A stretch of DNA of 64,000 nt, taken from positions 558,001 to 622,000 of the forward strand of contig NZ_JACHMF010000001.1 of NCBI RefSeq assembly GCF_014204895.1, in the 5' to 3' direction. This document shows positions 2,780 through 39,475 of the stretch, piece after piece (positions within the stretch are counted from its first letter, which is position 1; every line of letters begins with the position of its first letter). A program made the translations under genes and the position numbers. The notes beneath the pieces were generated by a model. It made no database searches. It was not told where the DNA came from and saw only the letters and a list, made by a program, of their open reading frames with translations. Source of the stretch: Paractinoplanes abujensis (GTDB lineage Bacteria; Actinomycetota; Actinomycetes; Mycobacteriales; Micromonosporaceae).

Positions 2780-3676
2780 ATGGCCGGGCAGCTGCTGCTC
2801 GCGTTGACCGCCGGCATGCTCGGTGCGGTCAACCCGTGCGGCTTCGCGCTCCTGCCGGCGTATCTCTCGGTGCTCGTCGCGGCCGAACCGGGCCGTCCCG
2901 TCCGGGCCGTCGGGCGCGCGCTCCAGGCGGGCGCGGCCCTGGCGCTCGGCTACGCGGTCGTGTTCGGCGCGTTCGGCCTGGTGCTCACCCCGATCGCCGG
3001 CGCGCTGCAACCCCGCCTGCCCTGGCTGACCGTGGTGCTCGGCCTGGGGCTGGCTGCGCTCGGCGGGTGGCTGCTGGCCGGGCGCTCGTTACCGTCGGTC
3101 ACCGTCCGCGCGCCGGTGCTGACCGGTTCGACCGGCTCGACCGTGCTCTTCGGGATGGCGTACGCGGTGGCCTCGCTGGGCTGCGCGGTCGGCCCGTTCC
3201 TGGCCCTCGTGGTGTCGAGCCTGCGGGCGGGTTCGATCGGCTCCGGCGTCGCGCTCTTTTTCGCGTACGCCGGAGGAATGGCCCTGGTGGTGAGCGCCAC
3301 CGCGGTGGCCGTGGCGCTCGTACGGGTCTCGCTGCTCACCCGGATCCGGGGCCTGCTCGGGCTGGTGCCGCGCGTGGGCGGCGCGATCCTGGTCGTGTGC
3401 GGGCTCTACGTGGCCTACTACGGCTGGTACGAGTTGCGCCTGGCCGGCGATCTGCGGCTGGCCGGCACCGACCCGGTGATCAACGCGGCGGCCGTCGTGC
3501 AGCGGTGGCTCAGCTCGGTCGTCGCCGCCCTGGGCGCGTGGCCGTTCGTGGTCGTCGTCGCGATCGCGCTGCTCGCCCTGGTGGTGCTGACGAAGAAACG
3601 GCCCGCACGAGGCGGGCCGTTCTCCAGCGAAAGGGTTACGGATCAGGAGGTCAGGCGGCCGGCGGGTACGCGCTGA
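2780..3676 (+). CDS. CcdA/DsbD-type transmembrane thiol-redox protein
   Basis: 298 residues, mostly hydrophobic with about seven membrane helices. Two conserved cysteines sit in NPCGFALLPAYL near the N-terminus and ASLGCAVGPFLA in the middle. This is the Cys pair that CcdA/DsbD-type proteins use to pass reducing power across the membrane, here most likely to the TlpA-like lipoprotein encoded just upstream. The last about 26 codons after the final helix contain a 10-bp hairpin and run 26 nt into the convergent pspC gene. The true C-terminus could be shorter in function, but no earlier in-frame stop exists. Confidence 0.88.
   Translation: MAGQLLLALTAGMLGAVNPCGFALLPAYLSVLVAAEPGRPVRAVGRALQAGAALALGYAVVFGAFGLVLTPIAGALQPRLPWLTVVLGLGLAALGGWLLAGRSLPSVTVRAPVLTGSTGSTVLFGMAYAVASLGCAVGPFLALVVSSLRAGSIGSGVALFFAYAGGMALVVSATAVAVALVRVSLLTRIRGLLGLVPRVGGAILVVCGLYVAYYGWYELRLAGDLRLAGTDPVINAAAVVQRWLSSVVAALGAWPFVVVVAIALLALVVLTKKRPARGGPFSSERVTDQEVRRPAGTR
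3597..3621. terminator. Bidirectional hairpin inside the 3' end of the CcdA-like gene
   Basis: Perfect 10-bp stem AACGGCCCGC/GCGGGCCGTT with a 5-nt loop. It lies between two convergent genes and inside the coding end of the plus-strand one. No long T-tract follows on the plus strand, so the hairpin itself is the evidence. Confidence 0.55.
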
Positions 3677-34164: not shown

Positions 34165-34737
34165 GTGGCTGGACCGTCTGTCGAGCTGTCGCCCGTCATC
34201 GCGGCGAGCACGCACTGGCTCTCGCGTGCCTACCCGGCGGGTAGCCCCGACACGATCGCCCACACCCTGTCGGAGCTGCAGGCCCGGCAGGCCGTGACGG
34301 TCGCCGCGTGGCTGCGCTACCCGACGGAGGTCGACGCCGCGCTGGTGGCGATCGCCGGGCCCGGCGGCTCGGCCGTGCTCGACTGGCGCGCCGGCAGCGA
34401 GCCCGAGGACGAGGAGGCCGAGGAGGAGGGCTGGCGCACCTGGGTCGACGAGGTCGTGGTCAGCTGGGCCGCCTGCCTGCTGGCCGACCCCGAGCTGGCC
34501 CGCCGCGGGGTCGACGCGGTCATCGCCGCGATGCCGTCCGCCGACGACCGGCCGCTGCCCTACCCGCGCAAGAACGGCGCCGCGCCGGCCGAGTTCCGCC
34601 GCCTGCTCGAGCCCGACCTGCGCGACCGCGACGCCGCCGTCCTGCTCCGCCACCCCGACCTGCTCGAGCCGGTCGCCGAGATGCACCGCGACACCCTGCT
34701 GTATCTGCTCGACGTCGAGCAGCCGCTGGTCGCCTGA
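34165..34737 (+). CDS. Hypothetical protein, 190 residues
   Basis: Not recognised. Soluble, Ala- and acid-rich, helical, with WRTWVDEVVVSWAACLLADP and a distal LLRHPDLLEPVAEMHRDTLL. GTG start with GGAGGAG at good spacing. Single gene followed by a strong terminator, placed between the divergent glgE operon and the sigma factor gene. Confidence 0.75.
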   Translation: MAGPSVELSPVIAASTHWLSRAYPAGSPDTIAHTLSELQARQAVTVAAWLRYPTEVDAALVAIAGPGGSAVLDWRAGSEPEDEEAEEEGWRTWVDEVVVSWAACLLADPELARRGVDAVIAAMPSADDRPLPYPRKNGAAPAEFRRLLEPDLRDRDAAVLLRHPDLLEPVAEMHRDTLLYLLDVEQPLVA

Positions 34738-34746
34738 AACCGCCGG

Positions 34747-34786
34747 AACCGGCACCCCCACGTACGGGGGTGCCGGTTTTGCTTTT
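34747..34786 (+). terminator. Strong rho-independent terminator
   Basis: 13-bp perfect stem AACCGGCACCCCC/GGGGGTGCCGGTT with a 6-nt loop, followed by TTGCTTTT. It closes the 34165 gene and also lies just beyond structured element A on the other strand. Confidence 0.9.
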
Positions 34787-34907
34787 GGGCGCAACCACTC
34801 ACTCACGTCGCCGCGGCACGGCGAGCGTTCTGGACGCGTCAGCGGCCAGCTCGTCGTGTCGTGGCCCCCGCGGGAGCGACGGCCGGCACCCACCACCCCG
34901 CCGGGAC
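34787..34907 (-). ncRNA. Structured 121-bp element, copy A (ncRNA or repeat candidate)
   Basis: On the minus strand this aligns without gaps over 121 bases with the plus strand at 38701-38821, at 99 identical positions. The first 45 and last 26 positions are almost unchanged; differences cluster in a central hairpin where paired bases change together. Predicted helices (element numbering): 17-22/116-121, 27-32/97-102, 46-59/82-95, 60-66/71-77 with a TGAC loop. It begins 12 nt after the stop of the SigB-like gene on the same strand, so it may be its 3' UTR or a separate small RNA. The strand is inferred. Confidence 0.55.
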
Positions 34908-34919
34908 ATCCGGTTCTTC

Positions 34920-35675
34920 TCACAGTCCTTCTCGTAGTTCGCCGCGCAGCTTGGTCAAGGCGCGGGTCAGCAGGCGCGACACGTGCATCTGGGAGATGCC
35001 GATGTGGTCGGCGATCTGCGACTGGGTCAGGTTGCCGTAGAAGCGCAGCGTCAGGATCTTCTGCTCGCGCTCGTCGAGCGTGGCCAGCGCCGGCCCGAGC
35101 GCGACCCGGGTCTCGGCCAGCTCGAACTCCGCGTCCTCACCGCCGATCGTGTCGCCGAGCGACGTGGTGCCATCGGCGCTGACGGGGGTGGAGAGGGAGG
35201 CGGTGTTGTAGGCCCGCGCGCCTTCCAGGCCTTCCAGCACGTCCTCCTCGGTGACGCCCAGGTGGGCGGCGACGTCGGCCACGGTGGGCGAGCGGCCCAG
35301 AGTGGTGGTGAGGGTCGCGTTGGCCTCGGTGATCGCCAGGCGCAACTCCTGCAGGCGCCGCGGCACCCGGACCGACCAGGTGCGGTCGCGGAAGTGGCGT
35401 TTGATCTCGCCGATGATGGTGGGGATGGCGTAGCCGGCGAAGTCGACGCCGCGTGCCGGGTCGAACTTGTCGACCGCCTTGATCAGGCCGATCGTGGCCG
35501 TCTGGACCAGGTCGTCGGTGGGTTCGCCGCGGCCCGCGTAGCGGTGGGCCAAGTGGCGGGCCAGGGGCAACCAGGCCTCGATGGCCTCCTCCCGCAGCCG
35601 GGGCCGGTCGGGGTGCTGCGAGAGCGTGACCAGCAGTTCAGAGGCGGTTTCGGGCACCTTCGTACGCACTGTCAT
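34920..35675 (-). CDS. SigB/SigF-type general stress RNA polymerase sigma factor
   Basis: 251 residues. Region 2 (DDLVQTATIGLIKAVDKFDPARG), region 3 (GRSPTVADVAAHLGVTEEDV) and region 4 (TLRFYGNLTQSQIADHIGISQMHVSRLLTRAL) are complete, and IPTIIGEIKRHFRDRTWSVRVPRR is characteristic of the SigB/SigF/SigG group. No anti-sigma RsbW or RsbV gene is adjacent. The ATG at 35675 follows GGAGG; the open frame upstream lacks support. Divergent from ppgK. Confidence 0.9.
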   Translation of the reverse strand: MTVRTKVPETASELLVTLSQHPDRPRLREEAIEAWLPLARHLAHRYAGRGEPTDDLVQTATIGLIKAVDKFDPARGVDFAGYAIPTIIGEIKRHFRDRTWSVRVPRRLQELRLAITEANATLTTTLGRSPTVADVAAHLGVTEEDVLEGLEGARAYNTASLSTPVSADGTTSLGDTIGGEDAEFELAETRVALGPALATLDEREQKILTLRFYGNLTQSQIADHIGISQMHVSRLLTRALTKLRGELREGL

Positions 35676-35888
35676 GGTCGGGTCCTCCAGAGAGCGGGCA
35701 GAGAGCCGTGTCCGCTTGCGGCGACCGTTCAGATGGTTTAACGCTAACTGAGAAGATGAGGCTTGCCCAGCCGAAAGTACGAGGGTCACCCGACAACCCC
35801 TCCGACCGGCTCGTGGCGAGGGGATTTAATGTCGGGGCTCCGTGGTAAACAGCGGATGCACACCTGGCACCTCAAGACGGGAAACAAG

Positions 35889-36686
35889 ATGGCCATTCTC
35901 GGCATCGACATCGGCGGCTCGGGCGTCAAGGGCGCCCCGGTCGACACGGCCGCGGGCGAGCTGCTCGCCGAGCGGCACCGGGTGCCCACGCCCCAGCCGT
36001 CCGACGTCACCAGCGTGGTCGAGGCCGTGGCCGAGGTGGCGGCCCAGTTCGATGGCGGCTTCGACCGGGTCGGCATCACCTTCCCCGGCGTGGTGGTCGA
36101 CGGCGTCACCCGCTCGGCGGCCAACGTCGACAAGTCCTGGCTCGACGCGCCGGCCGCGCGGCTGTTCAGCGACCGGCTGGGCAAGCCGGTGTCGGTGCTC
36201 AACGACGCCGACGCGGCGGGTGTGGCCGAAGTGGCCTACGGTGCCGGCCGCGACCAGTCCGGCCTGATCATGATGCTCACGTTCGGCACCGGTATCGGCA
36301 GCGCGCTGTTCCTCGACGGCACGCTGATCCCGAACACCGAGTTCGGCCACCTCGAGCTGGACGGCCACGACGCCGAGTCCAAGGCGGCCGACCGGGCCCG
36401 CGAGCAGGAGGATCTGAGCTGGGAGAAGTGGGCGCACCGGGTCCGCAACTACCTGGCCCACGTCGAGATGCTGCTCTCGCCCCGGCTGTTCATCATCGGC
36501 GGCGGTGTCAGCAAGAAGGCCGACCGCTGGCTCCCGCTGATCGACATCCGCACCCCGATGGTGCCGGCCACGCTGCTCAACAACGCGGGCATCATCGGCG
36601 CCGCGCGGATCGCCGAGATCGACGGCCGGGCGCCCGACCGCGACGGCGTCGCCCCGCACGAGGCCGGCGAGCGGGTGGCCGGCTGA
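35889..36686 (+). CDS. ppgK: Polyphosphate glucokinase
   Basis: 265 residues, ROK fold. Motifs: [18 protein letters not shown] (phosphate binding), [24 protein letters not shown] (catalytic Asp) and [15 protein letters not shown]. It phosphorylates glucose with polyphosphate or ATP. The GEFGHLEL-type sequence ([16 protein letters not shown]) is typical of the actinobacterial PpgK group. ATG 35889 gives the standard N-terminus. The next gene starts on the last base of its stop codon. Confidence 0.93.
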
Positions 36687-37147
36687 TGCCGCGCACGATC
36701 GCCACCAACACCGACGTCGAGCGCGAGGCCCTGCTCGAGTTCCTGCGCCCGCGGCACAAGGCCGTCCTGATGACCACCCGCCGCGACGGCCGCCCGCAGG
36801 CCTCGCCCAACACGTGCGGCGTCGACACCGAGGGCCGCATCGTCATCTCGACCTACCCCGAGCGGGCCAAGGTCTACAACCTGCGGCGCAACCCGCAGGT
36901 CTCGGTGTGCGTGCTCTCCGACGACTTCGGCGGCCCCTGGGTGCAGGTCGACGGCACGGCCGAGGTGCTCGACCTGCCCGAGGCCCTCGAGCCCCTGGTG
37001 GAGTATTTCCGCGTCATCTCGGGCGAACACTCCGACTGGGACGAGTATCGCCAGGCCATGCGCGACCAGGGCAAGTCCCTGATCCGCATCACGATCGAGC
37101 GCTGGGGCCCGATCGCGACCGGCGGCTTCCCGGCCCGCCTGGCCTGA
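36686..37147 (+). CDS. PPOX-class F420-dependent flavin/deazaflavin protein
   Basis: 153 residues, split beta-barrel. FLRPRHKAVLMTTRRDGRPQ and VYNLRRNPQVSVCVLSDD, then VQVDGTAEVLDLPEAL are typical of actinobacterial PPOX-class proteins that use F420. The reaction is probably reduction of an unknown substrate. TGATG overlap with ppgK means cotranslation. Confidence 0.87.
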   Translation: MPRTIATNTDVEREALLEFLRPRHKAVLMTTRRDGRPQASPNTCGVDTEGRIVISTYPERAKVYNLRRNPQVSVCVLSDDFGGPWVQVDGTAEVLDLPEALEPLVEYFRVISGEHSDWDEYRQAMRDQGKSLIRITIERWGPIATGGFPARLA

Positions 37148-37171
37148 GCCGTCCTGCGTCCGACGAACCGC

Positions 37172-38092
37172 CTAGCGCCACTCCGCCAGGCGGTTCGTCG
37201 CGATCTTGGCCATGGCCTCGACGTTCTTGCGCTGCGACGACGCGCTCTCGTAGCCGCGCGTGTCGATCAGCGTGACCGCGTCGCCGACCCGCACGGCCGC
37301 GATGAAGGTGTGCTGCCGGGAGCCGTTGTTCGAGGGTTCGCCGTCGTCACCGGTCGACGCGTACGAACGGTCGATCAGGATCGACGAATCGCCCAGGCCC
37401 AGCGAACCCAGCGAGTCGAACTCGGCTTCCAGGTCACCCAGCTTGCCGGTGGGGCAGTTCTGCACGGCCCGGGCCAGCTCGCTCATGAAGTCCTCGGCGC
37501 CCTCACCGCGATAGACGGTCACGGTGTTGAAGAGCGTGTCGTCGGCGATGTAGTCGGCCGGGGTGCCCGGCCCGCGGTAGAACATGCGCACCGACGCGCT
37601 GACCCCGACGTCGTCCTGGCTCGGGAACTTGGCCTTGCCGCAGAACTCCGGCCGCGGCTCGGGCTCGTCGTAGCGGTGGAAGTCGCTGACACCCTTGTCG
37701 TCCGGGCTGATCAGGGCCCGGGCCGGGATCGACTTCGGGATGGCCGGGGCGTTGCTGGTCGGCGGGGACGAAGGTGGCTTCGTGGTCGCCGGGGCCGAGG
37801 TGACCGGCGGGGGCACGACGGACGGGGCGGTGCTCGGCGCGGCGGAGCTCACGGTCGGGCCGGCGCTCGCGGCGGGCGGCAGGGCGGATTTCTGCTGGTT
37901 GTCGCCGGCCAGCGCCCAACCCGCGCCGATCGCGGCCACGGCGAGCACCGCGGCGGTGCCGGTCGTCAGGGCGATGCCCCGGTTGTGCCGCCGGCCCGCC
38001 TGCCGGCGCAGTTCGGGCCCGGAAAGCAGCAGCCCGCGCTCGGCGTCCGAGGAGAGCGCGGCGAAAGCGTCGTCGACTTCAGCGTTCGGCAT
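37172..38092 (-). CDS. Membrane-anchored partner protein of the adjacent sigma factor
   Basis: 306 residues. A short cytoplasmic N-terminus (VDDAFAALSSDAERGLLLSG, then PELRRQAGRRHNRG) precedes one membrane helix (TTGTAAVLAVAAIGAGWALA), a long Pro/Ser/Thr/Ala linker and an extracellular domain of about 190 residues with two or more cysteines. The layout is the same as the other sigma-associated protein at 16426-17379. The start overlaps the sigma gene by 14 nt. Anti-sigma or sensor role is inferred from position. Confidence 0.72.
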   Translation of the reverse strand: MPNAEVDDAFAALSSDAERGLLLSGPELRRQAGRRHNRGIALTTGTAAVLAVAAIGAGWALAGDNQQKSALPPAASAGPTVSSAAPSTAPSVVPPPVTSAPATTKPPSSPPTSNAPAIPKSIPARALISPDDKGVSDFHRYDEPEPRPEFCGKAKFPSQDDVGVSASVRMFYRGPGTPADYIADDTLFNTVTVYRGEGAEDFMSELARAVQNCPTGKLGDLEAEFDSLGSLGLGDSSILIDRSYASTGDDGEPSNNGSRQHTFIAAVRVGDAVTLIDTRGYESASSQRKNVEAMAKIATNRLAEWR

Positions 38093-38585
38093 CGGTGACC
38101 TCCGGGGTCCGGGTGGGGGCGAGGAGCTCGGCCAGCTCGGCCCGGCCACGGCTCAGCCGTGACGTCACCGTGCCGACCGGCGCGCCGATCTCGGCGGCGA
38201 TGTCGGCCACCGACAGGTCGAAGAGGTAGTGCAGGGCCACCGCCTGCCGCATGGGCACCGCCAGTTTGCGCAGCGCCGCCGTCACCAGCACGGCGTCCTC
38301 GCTGGGCGGCGCGACCGGTTCGGGCGGCCCGGCCCGGCGCACCGCGGCCCGCCAGCCGCTGAGCCGCCGCCACCGGTCGGTCGACAGCCGGCCCACGGTC
38401 AGCCGCAGCCAGCCCTCCGGCGCCGGGTGCGCGGAGACCGTCCCCCAGCGGCGCCACGCCCGCGTGTACGCCTCCTGCACCACATCCTGAGCCTCGGCGA
38501 GATCCCCGGTCAGCGCGTACCCGTAGCGCAACATGCGCGCGGACGTCTCCCGGTAGAACTCGTCGAAGCCGTCCGCATCCCGCAT
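38079..38585 (-). CDS. SigE-family ECF RNA polymerase sigma factor
   Basis: 168 residues. Region 2 (LTGDLAEAQDVVQEAYTRAW) and region 4 (FDLSVADIAAEIGAPVGTVTSRLSRGRAEL) are clear. The start MRDADGFDEFY has AAGGAGCGGGG upstream; an ATG seven codons earlier has not. Paired with the membrane protein that follows. This is the second sigma/membrane-protein pair in the window. Confidence 0.88.
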   Translation of the reverse strand: MRDADGFDEFYRETSARMLRYGYALTGDLAEAQDVVQEAYTRAWRRWGTVSAHPAPEGWLRLTVGRLSTDRWRRLSGWRAAVRRAGPPEPVAPPSEDAVLVTAALRKLAVPMRQAVALHYLFDLSVADIAAEIGAPVGTVTSRLSRGRAELAELLAPTRTPEVTDAER

Positions 38586-38700
38586 CCCCGCTCCTTGTTT
38601 GTGCACCGAAAACGCCCGGCGTAAGGAGAATGCTGCATCCTTTCGAAAGTTTCTTCCCGGATTCGCGCCAGGGCGGCGCCATCAAGATCAAGAGCCTTGT

Positions 38701-38821
38701 GTCCCAGCGAGGTGGTGGGTGCCGGCCGTCGCTCCCGCGGGGACCCGGCCGGCCCGAGCAGGGCGCTGGCGCGCCCTGAACGCTCGGACCGGCCGGGCGA
38801 CGTGAGTGAGTGGTTGCGCCC
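38701..38821 (+). ncRNA. Structured 121-bp element, copy B (ncRNA or repeat candidate)
   Basis: Plus-strand copy of the element at 34787-34907. Central helix: positions 46-59 pair with 82-95 except one C-A mismatch, then AGGGCGC/GCGCCCT closes a TGGC loop. Compared with copy A, four base pairs (47/94, 51/90, 52/89, 60/77) are exchanged on both sides. It lies in a 323-bp gap, divergent from the sigma factor gene and 43 bp before a terminator, so it could be an independent transcript. A short ORF starting GTG TCC CAG also overlaps it but ends at different points in the two copies. Confidence 0.55.
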
Positions 38822-38864
38822 CTCAAAACCCGGGGACAGCGGTGCGGGGTGACGCCCAAAGCAG

Positions 38865-38908: not shown

Positions 38909-39475
38909 TTACTGGGCGCCGCTGGCTTGCCAGTTGAGCTGGACCAGGAGCTGACGGGCCTGCTCGGCGACCTCGGCGTCGGTGACGACCGCGTACTGGC
39001 CGGCCTGGATCGACGAGCGGGAGGCGAAGTCGCGGCGGCCGCCGGTCGCGGCGTGGGCGATCGCACCGAAGACCGCGCCCCAGGCCGCGCCGATCAGCAG
39101 GCAGACCAGGATCACGGCGAACCAGCCGGAGTCGCTGAACAGGCCGAACAGCAGGCCCACGAAGAGACCGAACCAGGCCCCGCTGGCCGCGCCGGCCAAC
39201 GCCGCCCGGCCCGTGGTGAGCCGGCCCAGCACGTTCTCGATCAGGCGCAGGTCGGTGCCGATGATGGCCGTGCGCTCGACCGGGAACTTGTTGTCGGAGA
39301 GGGTGTCGACGGCCTTCTGGGCCTGCGCGTAGTCGGGGTAGGTGCCGACCACGACGGTCGGCGCGCCCCCCGCGGCCTGGGTCTGCGCGGGCAGGCTGGG
39401 CACGCCGGCCGGACCGGGCGGGATGCCACCGGCGGCGGTCGACGGGTTATCGGCAGGGGTGTTGGGCGTGGTCAT
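38909..39475 (-). CDS. General stress protein 17M-like membrane protein
   Basis: 188 residues. A Pro/Ala-rich start, then VVVGTYPDYAQAQKAVDTL, which is the opening of the GSP17M (YflT-like) domain, ERTAIIGTDLRLIENV, two membrane segments (SGAWFGLFVGLLFGLF and FAVILVCLLIGAAWGAVFG), and AGQYAVVTDAEVAEQA. Likely a stress-induced membrane protein, fitting the nearby SigB-like factor. It starts in an ATGA overlap with the PAP2 gene, with GGGAGG upstream. Confidence 0.85.
   Translation of the reverse strand: MTTPNTPADNPSTAAGGIPPGPAGVPSLPAQTQAAGGAPTVVVGTYPDYAQAQKAVDTLSDNKFPVERTAIIGTDLRLIENVLGRLTTGRAALAGAASGAWFGLFVGLLFGLFSDSGWFAVILVCLLIGAAWGAVFGAIAHAATGGRRDFASRSSIQAGQYAVVTDAEVAEQARQLLVQLNWQASGAQ

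Follow-up and report, generated by a model that had tools for sequence, protein, structure and literature searches.

A dispersed intergenic three-hairpin repeat linked to local inversion and gene turnover in Paractinoplanes abujensis and its relatives

Several families of small structured repeats have been described in bacteria. ERIC elements are used in either orientation, REPIN/RAYT repeats are extragenic, palindromic, multi-copy sequences with paired copies, and integron attC sites are hairpins located beside exchanged genes. To our knowledge, small structured repeats are little described in actinomycetes outside mycobacteria; Actinoplanes is known for natural products. In the account of PMC2267715, the ERIC element of Escherichia coli has 127 bp and is predicted to fold as one long stem-loop, the palindromic unit (PU) is 40 bp long, and NEMIS, a miniature inverted-repeat transposable element (MITE), spans 106-158 bp. 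Here, a window of 64,000 nt from Paractinoplanes abujensis (assembly GCF_014204895.1, contig NZ_JACHMF010000001.1, positions 558,001 to 622,000) was analysed. It contains two inverted copies, A and B, of a hairpin element of about 125 nt. These copies are members of a dispersed repeat family and not a private pair. The family is linked to local inversion and gene turnover; its structure is real and its RNA role putative.

The explanation that we favour, at a probability of roughly 60%, is an ERIC-like, genus-specific, non-coding intergenic hairpin repeat, with about 25 copies in this genome, that serves as a recombination substrate. The element would have dispersed early within Actinoplanes sensu lato through a mechanism that acts in trans; on the sample compared, its sites are now mostly kept, usually at gene 3´ ends. 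Copies within a genome may swap sequence by recombination or gene conversion. Recombination of neighbouring inverted copies, with RecA assumed, would flip the intervening block, as proposed below for A and B, and a related process may underlie the species-specific gene content that inverted pairs also frame.

Copy A (34787-34907, minus strand) and copy B (38701-38821, plus strand) align without gaps, with 99 of 121 positions identical, 22 differences and a longest identical run of 32 nt. The similarity is far above chance, because copy B as a query recovers copy A from the whole genome at E = 6.6e-30. An earlier annotation made from the letters of the window (the sequence-only reading) had pointed to compensatory changes between the copies, and these were reproduced at 47/94 (CG in A, GC in B), 51/90 (AT, GC), 52/89 (CG, GC) and 60/77 (TA, AT). 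Its remark that the element resembles no Rfam family also holds: nothing in the window reached a gathering score, and a search of five element loci against Rfam at E ≤ 5 returned four weak matches, all outside the element.

The genome under study (G000, 9.33 Mb; other G codes denote sampled relatives) gave 26 matches in a DNA search with copy B, comprising, beyond A and B, 24 places at E ≤ 0.001, four of which are short or partial. A covariance model built from 22 of these copies found 25 matches at E ≤ 1, of which 22 are strong (113-143 bits) and three weak (39-62 bits). Among 60 sampled genomes of the genus, 47 carry matches at E ≤ 0.001, this one included, and the number per genome ranges from 0 to at least 58 (in G016). 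The sequence-only reading had proposed this count and held that hundreds of copies with target duplications would mark a mobile repeat; the copies per genome were found to number in the tens, and inspection by eye of one site (locus IV, described below) showed no duplication.

The family is restricted taxonomically. A model search of a family sample of 150 genomes from 44 genera, with stricter filters than the DNA search, gave matches at E ≤ 1e-4 in 10 genomes, all of the one genus. An exact-pattern scan that took one genome per species, across 84,980 species, yielded 89 stretches, and the 80 listed all belong to Actinoplanes, Paractinoplanes or Symbioplanes. Copy B as DNA gave weak matches (E 4.7e-6 to 7.7e-4) in nine of 24 genomes of the order's other families, which we think are chance in GC-rich DNA. 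Plasmids, phages and viral contigs, queried with one copy or one pattern, gave no match. A divergent subfamily with another H1 5´ arm (hairpins H1 to H3 are defined below) and a similar H2 tip occurs in G016 (loci L047 and L090-L092).

Neighbouring copies are predominantly inverted. Full lists, totalling 159 matches, cover five genomes. In these, neighbours within 6 kb comprise 21 inverted and no direct pairs, with 2.85 pairs of any kind expected (the expectation treats each genome as one contig); within 12 kb the counts are 22 and 6 (5.71 expected), and within 30 kb they are 37 and 15 (14.26 expected). Many pair loci are common to several genomes, and the 21 inverted pairs represent about 12 loci. 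Partners are spaced 0.2-5.5 kb apart.

The A-B block, from sigB to the ECF sigma gene, is inverted relative to G033, G035, G003, G034, G002, G027 and others, and G064 has the order of the window. A 27-genome tree built on three genes of the block groups G000 with G033 (support 100) and G064 with G003 (86). Because G000 and G064 are inverted and their nearest relatives in the tree are not, the block changed orientation at least twice among the species that carry the pair. The H2 types stay with the outer side, with the left type in both G000 and G033 and the right type likewise in both, and the exchange point would therefore lie between the 5´ flank and H2. The gene order in different species and this exchange point together suggest that recombination between the copies flipped the block. 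Both orientations were found between species only. The heptamer GCCGGCC at the H1 loop is present only in A and B among the 22 aligned copies. An origin of A and B as an inverted duplication at inversion breakpoints is not supported, as block order is identical in G033 and in G004, the latter free of elements. Separately, in the sigB-YflT intergenic region of L104 (G002) and L105 (G027), an element occupies the same site as in G033 and G034 in the opposite orientation, through either a separate insertion or a flip in place.

Inverted pairs frame gene content that differs between species at three loci. At locus IV, a pair of inverted elements at pdxS encloses a glycosyltransferase gene (Pfam) in G034 and G011, and the gene has opposite orientations in the two genomes. 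No match to this gene was found in 27 pdxS loci from other genomes (one of which ends at pdxS), and elements occur among them only in G083, as two abutting inverted copies, one weak. In G033, pdxS and the VOC gene of locus IV are on different contigs, and the junction is thus outside the comparison. The glycosyltransferase gene is found elsewhere in G000, G002, G003, G033 and G064, with no element match within about 1.5 kb. That other place is alike in G000, G003, G033 and G064, and G002 has only short pieces in common; G011 has the place without the gene, the flanks being 48 bp apart, and in G034 only one flank was found. The pair at locus VI encloses no called gene in G033 and G064 and four in G034, among which are regulators of PadR and AraC type. 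Two additional genes, for a dehydrogenase and a TetR regulator, are present in G034 at locus III.

Site comparisons covered loci picked for carrying elements, so that empty sites of relatives are uncounted. On this basis, 19 of 22 sites of G000 are also occupied in at least one relative; in G033, 18 of 22 are occupied as judged by either flank and eight by both. Compared with all copies of the same two genomes, same-site copies exceed in identity by only 0.009 (H1 and H3) and 0.012 (H2), as the mean of 46 comparisons, with variation from site to site. This suggests concerted evolution of copies within a genome, because the sites are common to species while the same-site sequences mostly are not; repeated replacement at the same sites would be an alternative. 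Mean similarity among copies is higher in G034 (0.899) than in six other genomes (0.784-0.843).

Several observations weigh against the recombining-repeat explanation. Same-site sequence is kept at some sites, for example II-panB, and the orientation of the block is unchanged at loci II and III. Pair partners are mutually closest at some loci only, and those of G003 rank 9th to 13th of 13. Some full copies (at L040, L059 and L141) have a weak partial copy next to them in direct orientation, outside the counted pairs. In G074, sigB lies beside g1 (the left flanking gene) with no element match there, and the same gene order therefore arises without elements. No mobilising enzyme was found, one family having been tested (Y1 transposase, PF01797), which is absent from the genome. 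The polarity of the elements described below (42:7) is not predicted by simple repeat recombination.

Folding of the 22-copy alignment (A3) gives three adjacent hairpins: H1, H2 and H3 occupy columns 26-70, 71-122 and 123-145. A larger alignment of 140 rows was reduced to 130 by dropping two same-place duplicates and eight rows in loci without an assigned place (L101-L105, L114 and L117); length and flank limits left 126 rows for folding energies, 125 for flank hairpins and tails and 122 for polarity. Many copies are preceded by a purine-rich leader similar to TCAAGATCAAGAgC, and A makes up 58-68% at each of the first three positions past the match (125 copies). Covariation and placement were assessed on 94 matches at E ≤ 0.1, which include weak and partial matches and orthologous copies from several genomes. 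The search covered the window and 77 of 97 loci, omitting loci that duplicated a place already covered and also L024, L031, L032 and L033, which were no such duplicates.

Standard pairs fill 93.2% of pair cells. The covariation score is 0.203, compared with 0.097 for shuffled alignments (above all 500 shuffles, which ignore relatedness) and at most 0.083 for slid pairings. Changes on both sides occur in 18 of 39 pairs, compared with 11.8 by shuffling, and in 11 of 12 pairs of the basal H2 helix, whose arms form 53 distinct arm pairs in the 94 rows, gapped rows included. A shared secondary structure with a covarying central hairpin H2 is supported by these data. Shuffling without regard to relatedness exaggerates this covariation, since sequence apparently passes between copies. 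Selection, the exchange between copies or the two together probably maintain the stem. A long-range pairing of GTCGC in H1 with GCGAC in H3 was disfavoured: columns 33/128 hold 17 C.A and columns 35/126 five A.C combinations, and H1 keeps its pairs.

The strand indicated by wobble pairs in H1 is the opposite of that indicated in H2. On the element-sense strand, H1 holds 254 G.U and 19 A.C cells and H2 nine G.U and 65 A.C cells, and a C.A in H2 on this strand is a U.G on the opposite strand. The same is seen in single columns: 18/33 has 75 GU and 19 GC, and 57/119 has 48 CA, 35 CG and six TA. The data do not show one selected RNA strand, which is not supported because H1 keeps G.U and H2 keeps C.A on the element-sense strand. 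The sequence-only reading had proposed a selected RNA, or protein-bound DNA, structure; the conserved, covarying fold is supported, and a single selected RNA is not. Folded DNA, or the use of both strands, is possible. Partial copies consisting of the leader and part of H1 lie directly upstream of full elements at L052, L059, L063, L065, L093, L136 and L147, and leader with partial H1 stands alone in G000 at 777562-777622 and 6363368-6363420. At L101 (G035), the greater part of H2 is missing from both A/B-locus elements, and each has a short replacement, alike in kind in the two, as if they had been altered together.

The elements are located between genes, which were called by the author's own gene-finding script. 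Overlap with a called gene never exceeds 40 nt in the 94 matches; in nine it amounts to 2-39 nt. At least one stop codon faces the element in 88 matches, and neither side has one in six. A same-strand stop lies on the 5´ side in 63 (within 45 nt in 41 of them), and an opposite-strand stop on the 3´ side in 69. The nearness to stop codons is real, but short convergent spacers could produce it without stop-codon targeting. Terminator targeting as a general rule is weak: a strong hairpin (-20 kcal/mol or lower) lies downstream of 18 of 125 copies compared with three in shuffled sequence, and upstream of seven compared with three. At L139 (G034, 3297-3621), one terminator-like hairpin, and no called gene, lies between two inverted elements.

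Copies lie in either orientation beside genes of many families, and no clear functional theme was found among the neighbours. Among the neighbours in G000 are apparent genes for a ribosomal protein, sigma factors, a sensor kinase, PanB and dCTP deaminase. The sequence-only reading had placed each copy near a sigma factor gene, and sigma-70 domains were confirmed by Pfam in both genes (Table 1). A sigma-factor regulon, though it may exist, is not supported: sigma-70 region 2 is the commonest Pfam family with four of 110 non-redundant neighbour genes, two of the four being in the window, which is too few to judge. Among 136 non-neighbour genes it does not figure in the 25 families listed and hence has at most two members there. 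The gene at L016:551-1417 was read as one of the four.

A structured RNA under selection, acting as a stabiliser of the 3´ untranslated region, a terminator or a small RNA, would accord with the double-sided changes and diverse arm pairs of the basal H2 helix, with the 63 matches that follow a same-strand stop codon and with the tendency of copies to stay with the 5´-side gene. We nevertheless consider it unlikely, given the opposite wobble strands of H1 and H2, the many families of the neighbour genes and the apparent sequence exchange that inflates the covariation counts. The folding energies also count against it: the energy is lower on the sense strand in 107 of 126 copies, yet the z-score (30 shuffles each) is lower on the minus strand in 102 of 126.

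Transposon ends or relics, either MITEs or parts of a composite transposon that could still transport genes enclosed by inverted copies, were also weighed. Such an origin would fit the dispersal of the copies, the likeness of the G034 copies to one another and the fact that, of the species compared, only G034 and G011 have the glycosyltransferase gene framed by inverted elements. Conversely, most compared sites are common to several species, the block genes scanned have no transposase match, the Y1 transposase family is missing from G000, and the single site viewed by eye, locus IV, lacks a target duplication. We regard this origin as quite improbable.

The elements could also be polar gene-docking boundaries, with the 5´ side tied to a resident gene and foreign or moved genes inserted on the 3´ side. 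Two elements facing inwards would then be an exchange site, with cargo in either orientation, and their folded DNA (H1 to H3) would be the target of a putative factor of the genus that recognises hairpins. In cross-species pairs of the 122 elements with long flanks, only the 5´ side is common in 42, only the 3´ side in seven and both in 88; by site cluster, 14 of 27 favour the 5´ side, none the 3´ side, and 13 tie. This polarity is partly explained by spacer length, because the 3´ spacer is longer (median 120 nt compared with 54.5 nt on the 5´ side). At three polar sites, the 3´-side genes in a relative match TetR, AHSA1, MarR and LRV or HEAT, and two have no match. We regard the docking scheme, too, as quite improbable.

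Sites of a dedicated site-specific recombinase for programmed inversion or cassette exchange are very unlikely: the inverted pairs, the repeated orientation change of the A-B block, the locus IV block inverted between G011 and G034, the variable gene content between pairs and the polarity would suit them, but no recombinase match was found in the 18 proteins to which the scan was confined (four of them without any Pfam match), no switching of a promoter is obvious, G074 has the flipped order without elements, and ordinary recombination between repeats longer than 100 bp would suffice.

The features of the A/B locus are listed in Table 1. Just after the ortholog of the left flanking gene, a second palindromic repeat of varying form was observed in several species, always at this gene end, around GGCTTCGCC, with GGGCGC near its end (L099, L101, L102, L116, L125 and L127). 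At L099 and L102, this second repeat has the string TTGCGCCC in common with the 3´ end of the element.

Table 1. Features of the A/B locus, in coordinates of the window.
Feature	Position	Strand	Remark
g1, left flanking gene, convergent with copy A	34165..34737	+	no Pfam match
Terminator-like hairpin between copy A and g1	34748..34779		-29.3 kcal/mol
A-rich 3´ tail of copy A	34776..34785	-	
Element copy A, full covariance-model match	34786..34910	-	125.1 bits
Hairpins of copy A	H1 = 34864-34907, H2 = 34812-34863, H3 = 34789-34811	-	covariance-model match
Gene block between the inverted copies	34911..38697		reverse orientation in G033, G035, G003 and most relatives compared
Sigma-70 family factor, labelled SigB type; stop codon 9 nt before the copy A match	34920..35669	-	Pfam sigma-70 domain
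ROK-family gene within block	35856..36686	+	Pfam
Pyridoxamine 5´-phosphate oxidase-like gene within block	36686..37147	+	Pfam
Gene without Pfam match within block	37172..38092	-	
Sigma-70 family factor, labelled ECF type, right end of block	38079..38585	-	Pfam sigma-70 domain
5´ leader of copy B, similar to the loosely conserved TCAAGATCAAGAgC leader of other copies	38681..38697	+	
Element copy B, full covariance-model match	38698..38822	+	113.5 bits
Hairpins of copy B	H1 = 38701-38744, H2 = 38745-38796, H3 = 38797-38819	+	covariance-model match
YflT-domain gene, right flank, convergent with copy B	38909..39475	-	Pfam

The family links hairpin repeats, local inversions and gene turnover in a form that can be tested. 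It also illustrates how two copies of a recombining repeat can come to differ by compensatory changes, which alone are therefore no proof of a non-coding RNA.

Compared with described repeats, the Actinoplanes element is most readily set beside ERIC (IRU), being about 125 bp long, intergenic, hairpin-forming and present in tens of copies; the likeness is one of kind. It differs in forming three adjacent hairpins instead of the one long stem-loop given for ERIC in PMC2267715, and in its excess of inverted neighbours. ERIC belongs to enterobacteria and vibrios, whereas the element occurs, among the 80 of 89 stretches listed in the exact-pattern scan, only in Actinoplanes in the broad sense. Like REP, PU-BIME and REPIN with RAYT, it is extragenic, palindromic, multi-copy and paired. 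Unlike REP, it is about three times as long as the 40-bp PU described in PMC2267715, with partners 0.2-5.5 kb apart. A REP/RAYT system was rejected, as Y1_Tnp (PF01797) is missing from G000 and, in total, from eight of the 10 genomes that have 20 or more element matches; this family is present in 15 of 60 genomes and, of those 10, only in G002 and G014. The element shares with MITEs such as NEMIS a short, non-coding, dispersed and structured nature, but no terminal inverted repeat is evident in the 22-copy alignment, and most compared sites are common to several species. Like integron attC, it is a hairpin site beside exchanged genes; unlike attC, its copies are inverted and not directly repeated, no integrase was identified, and its cargo lies in opposite orientations in two species.

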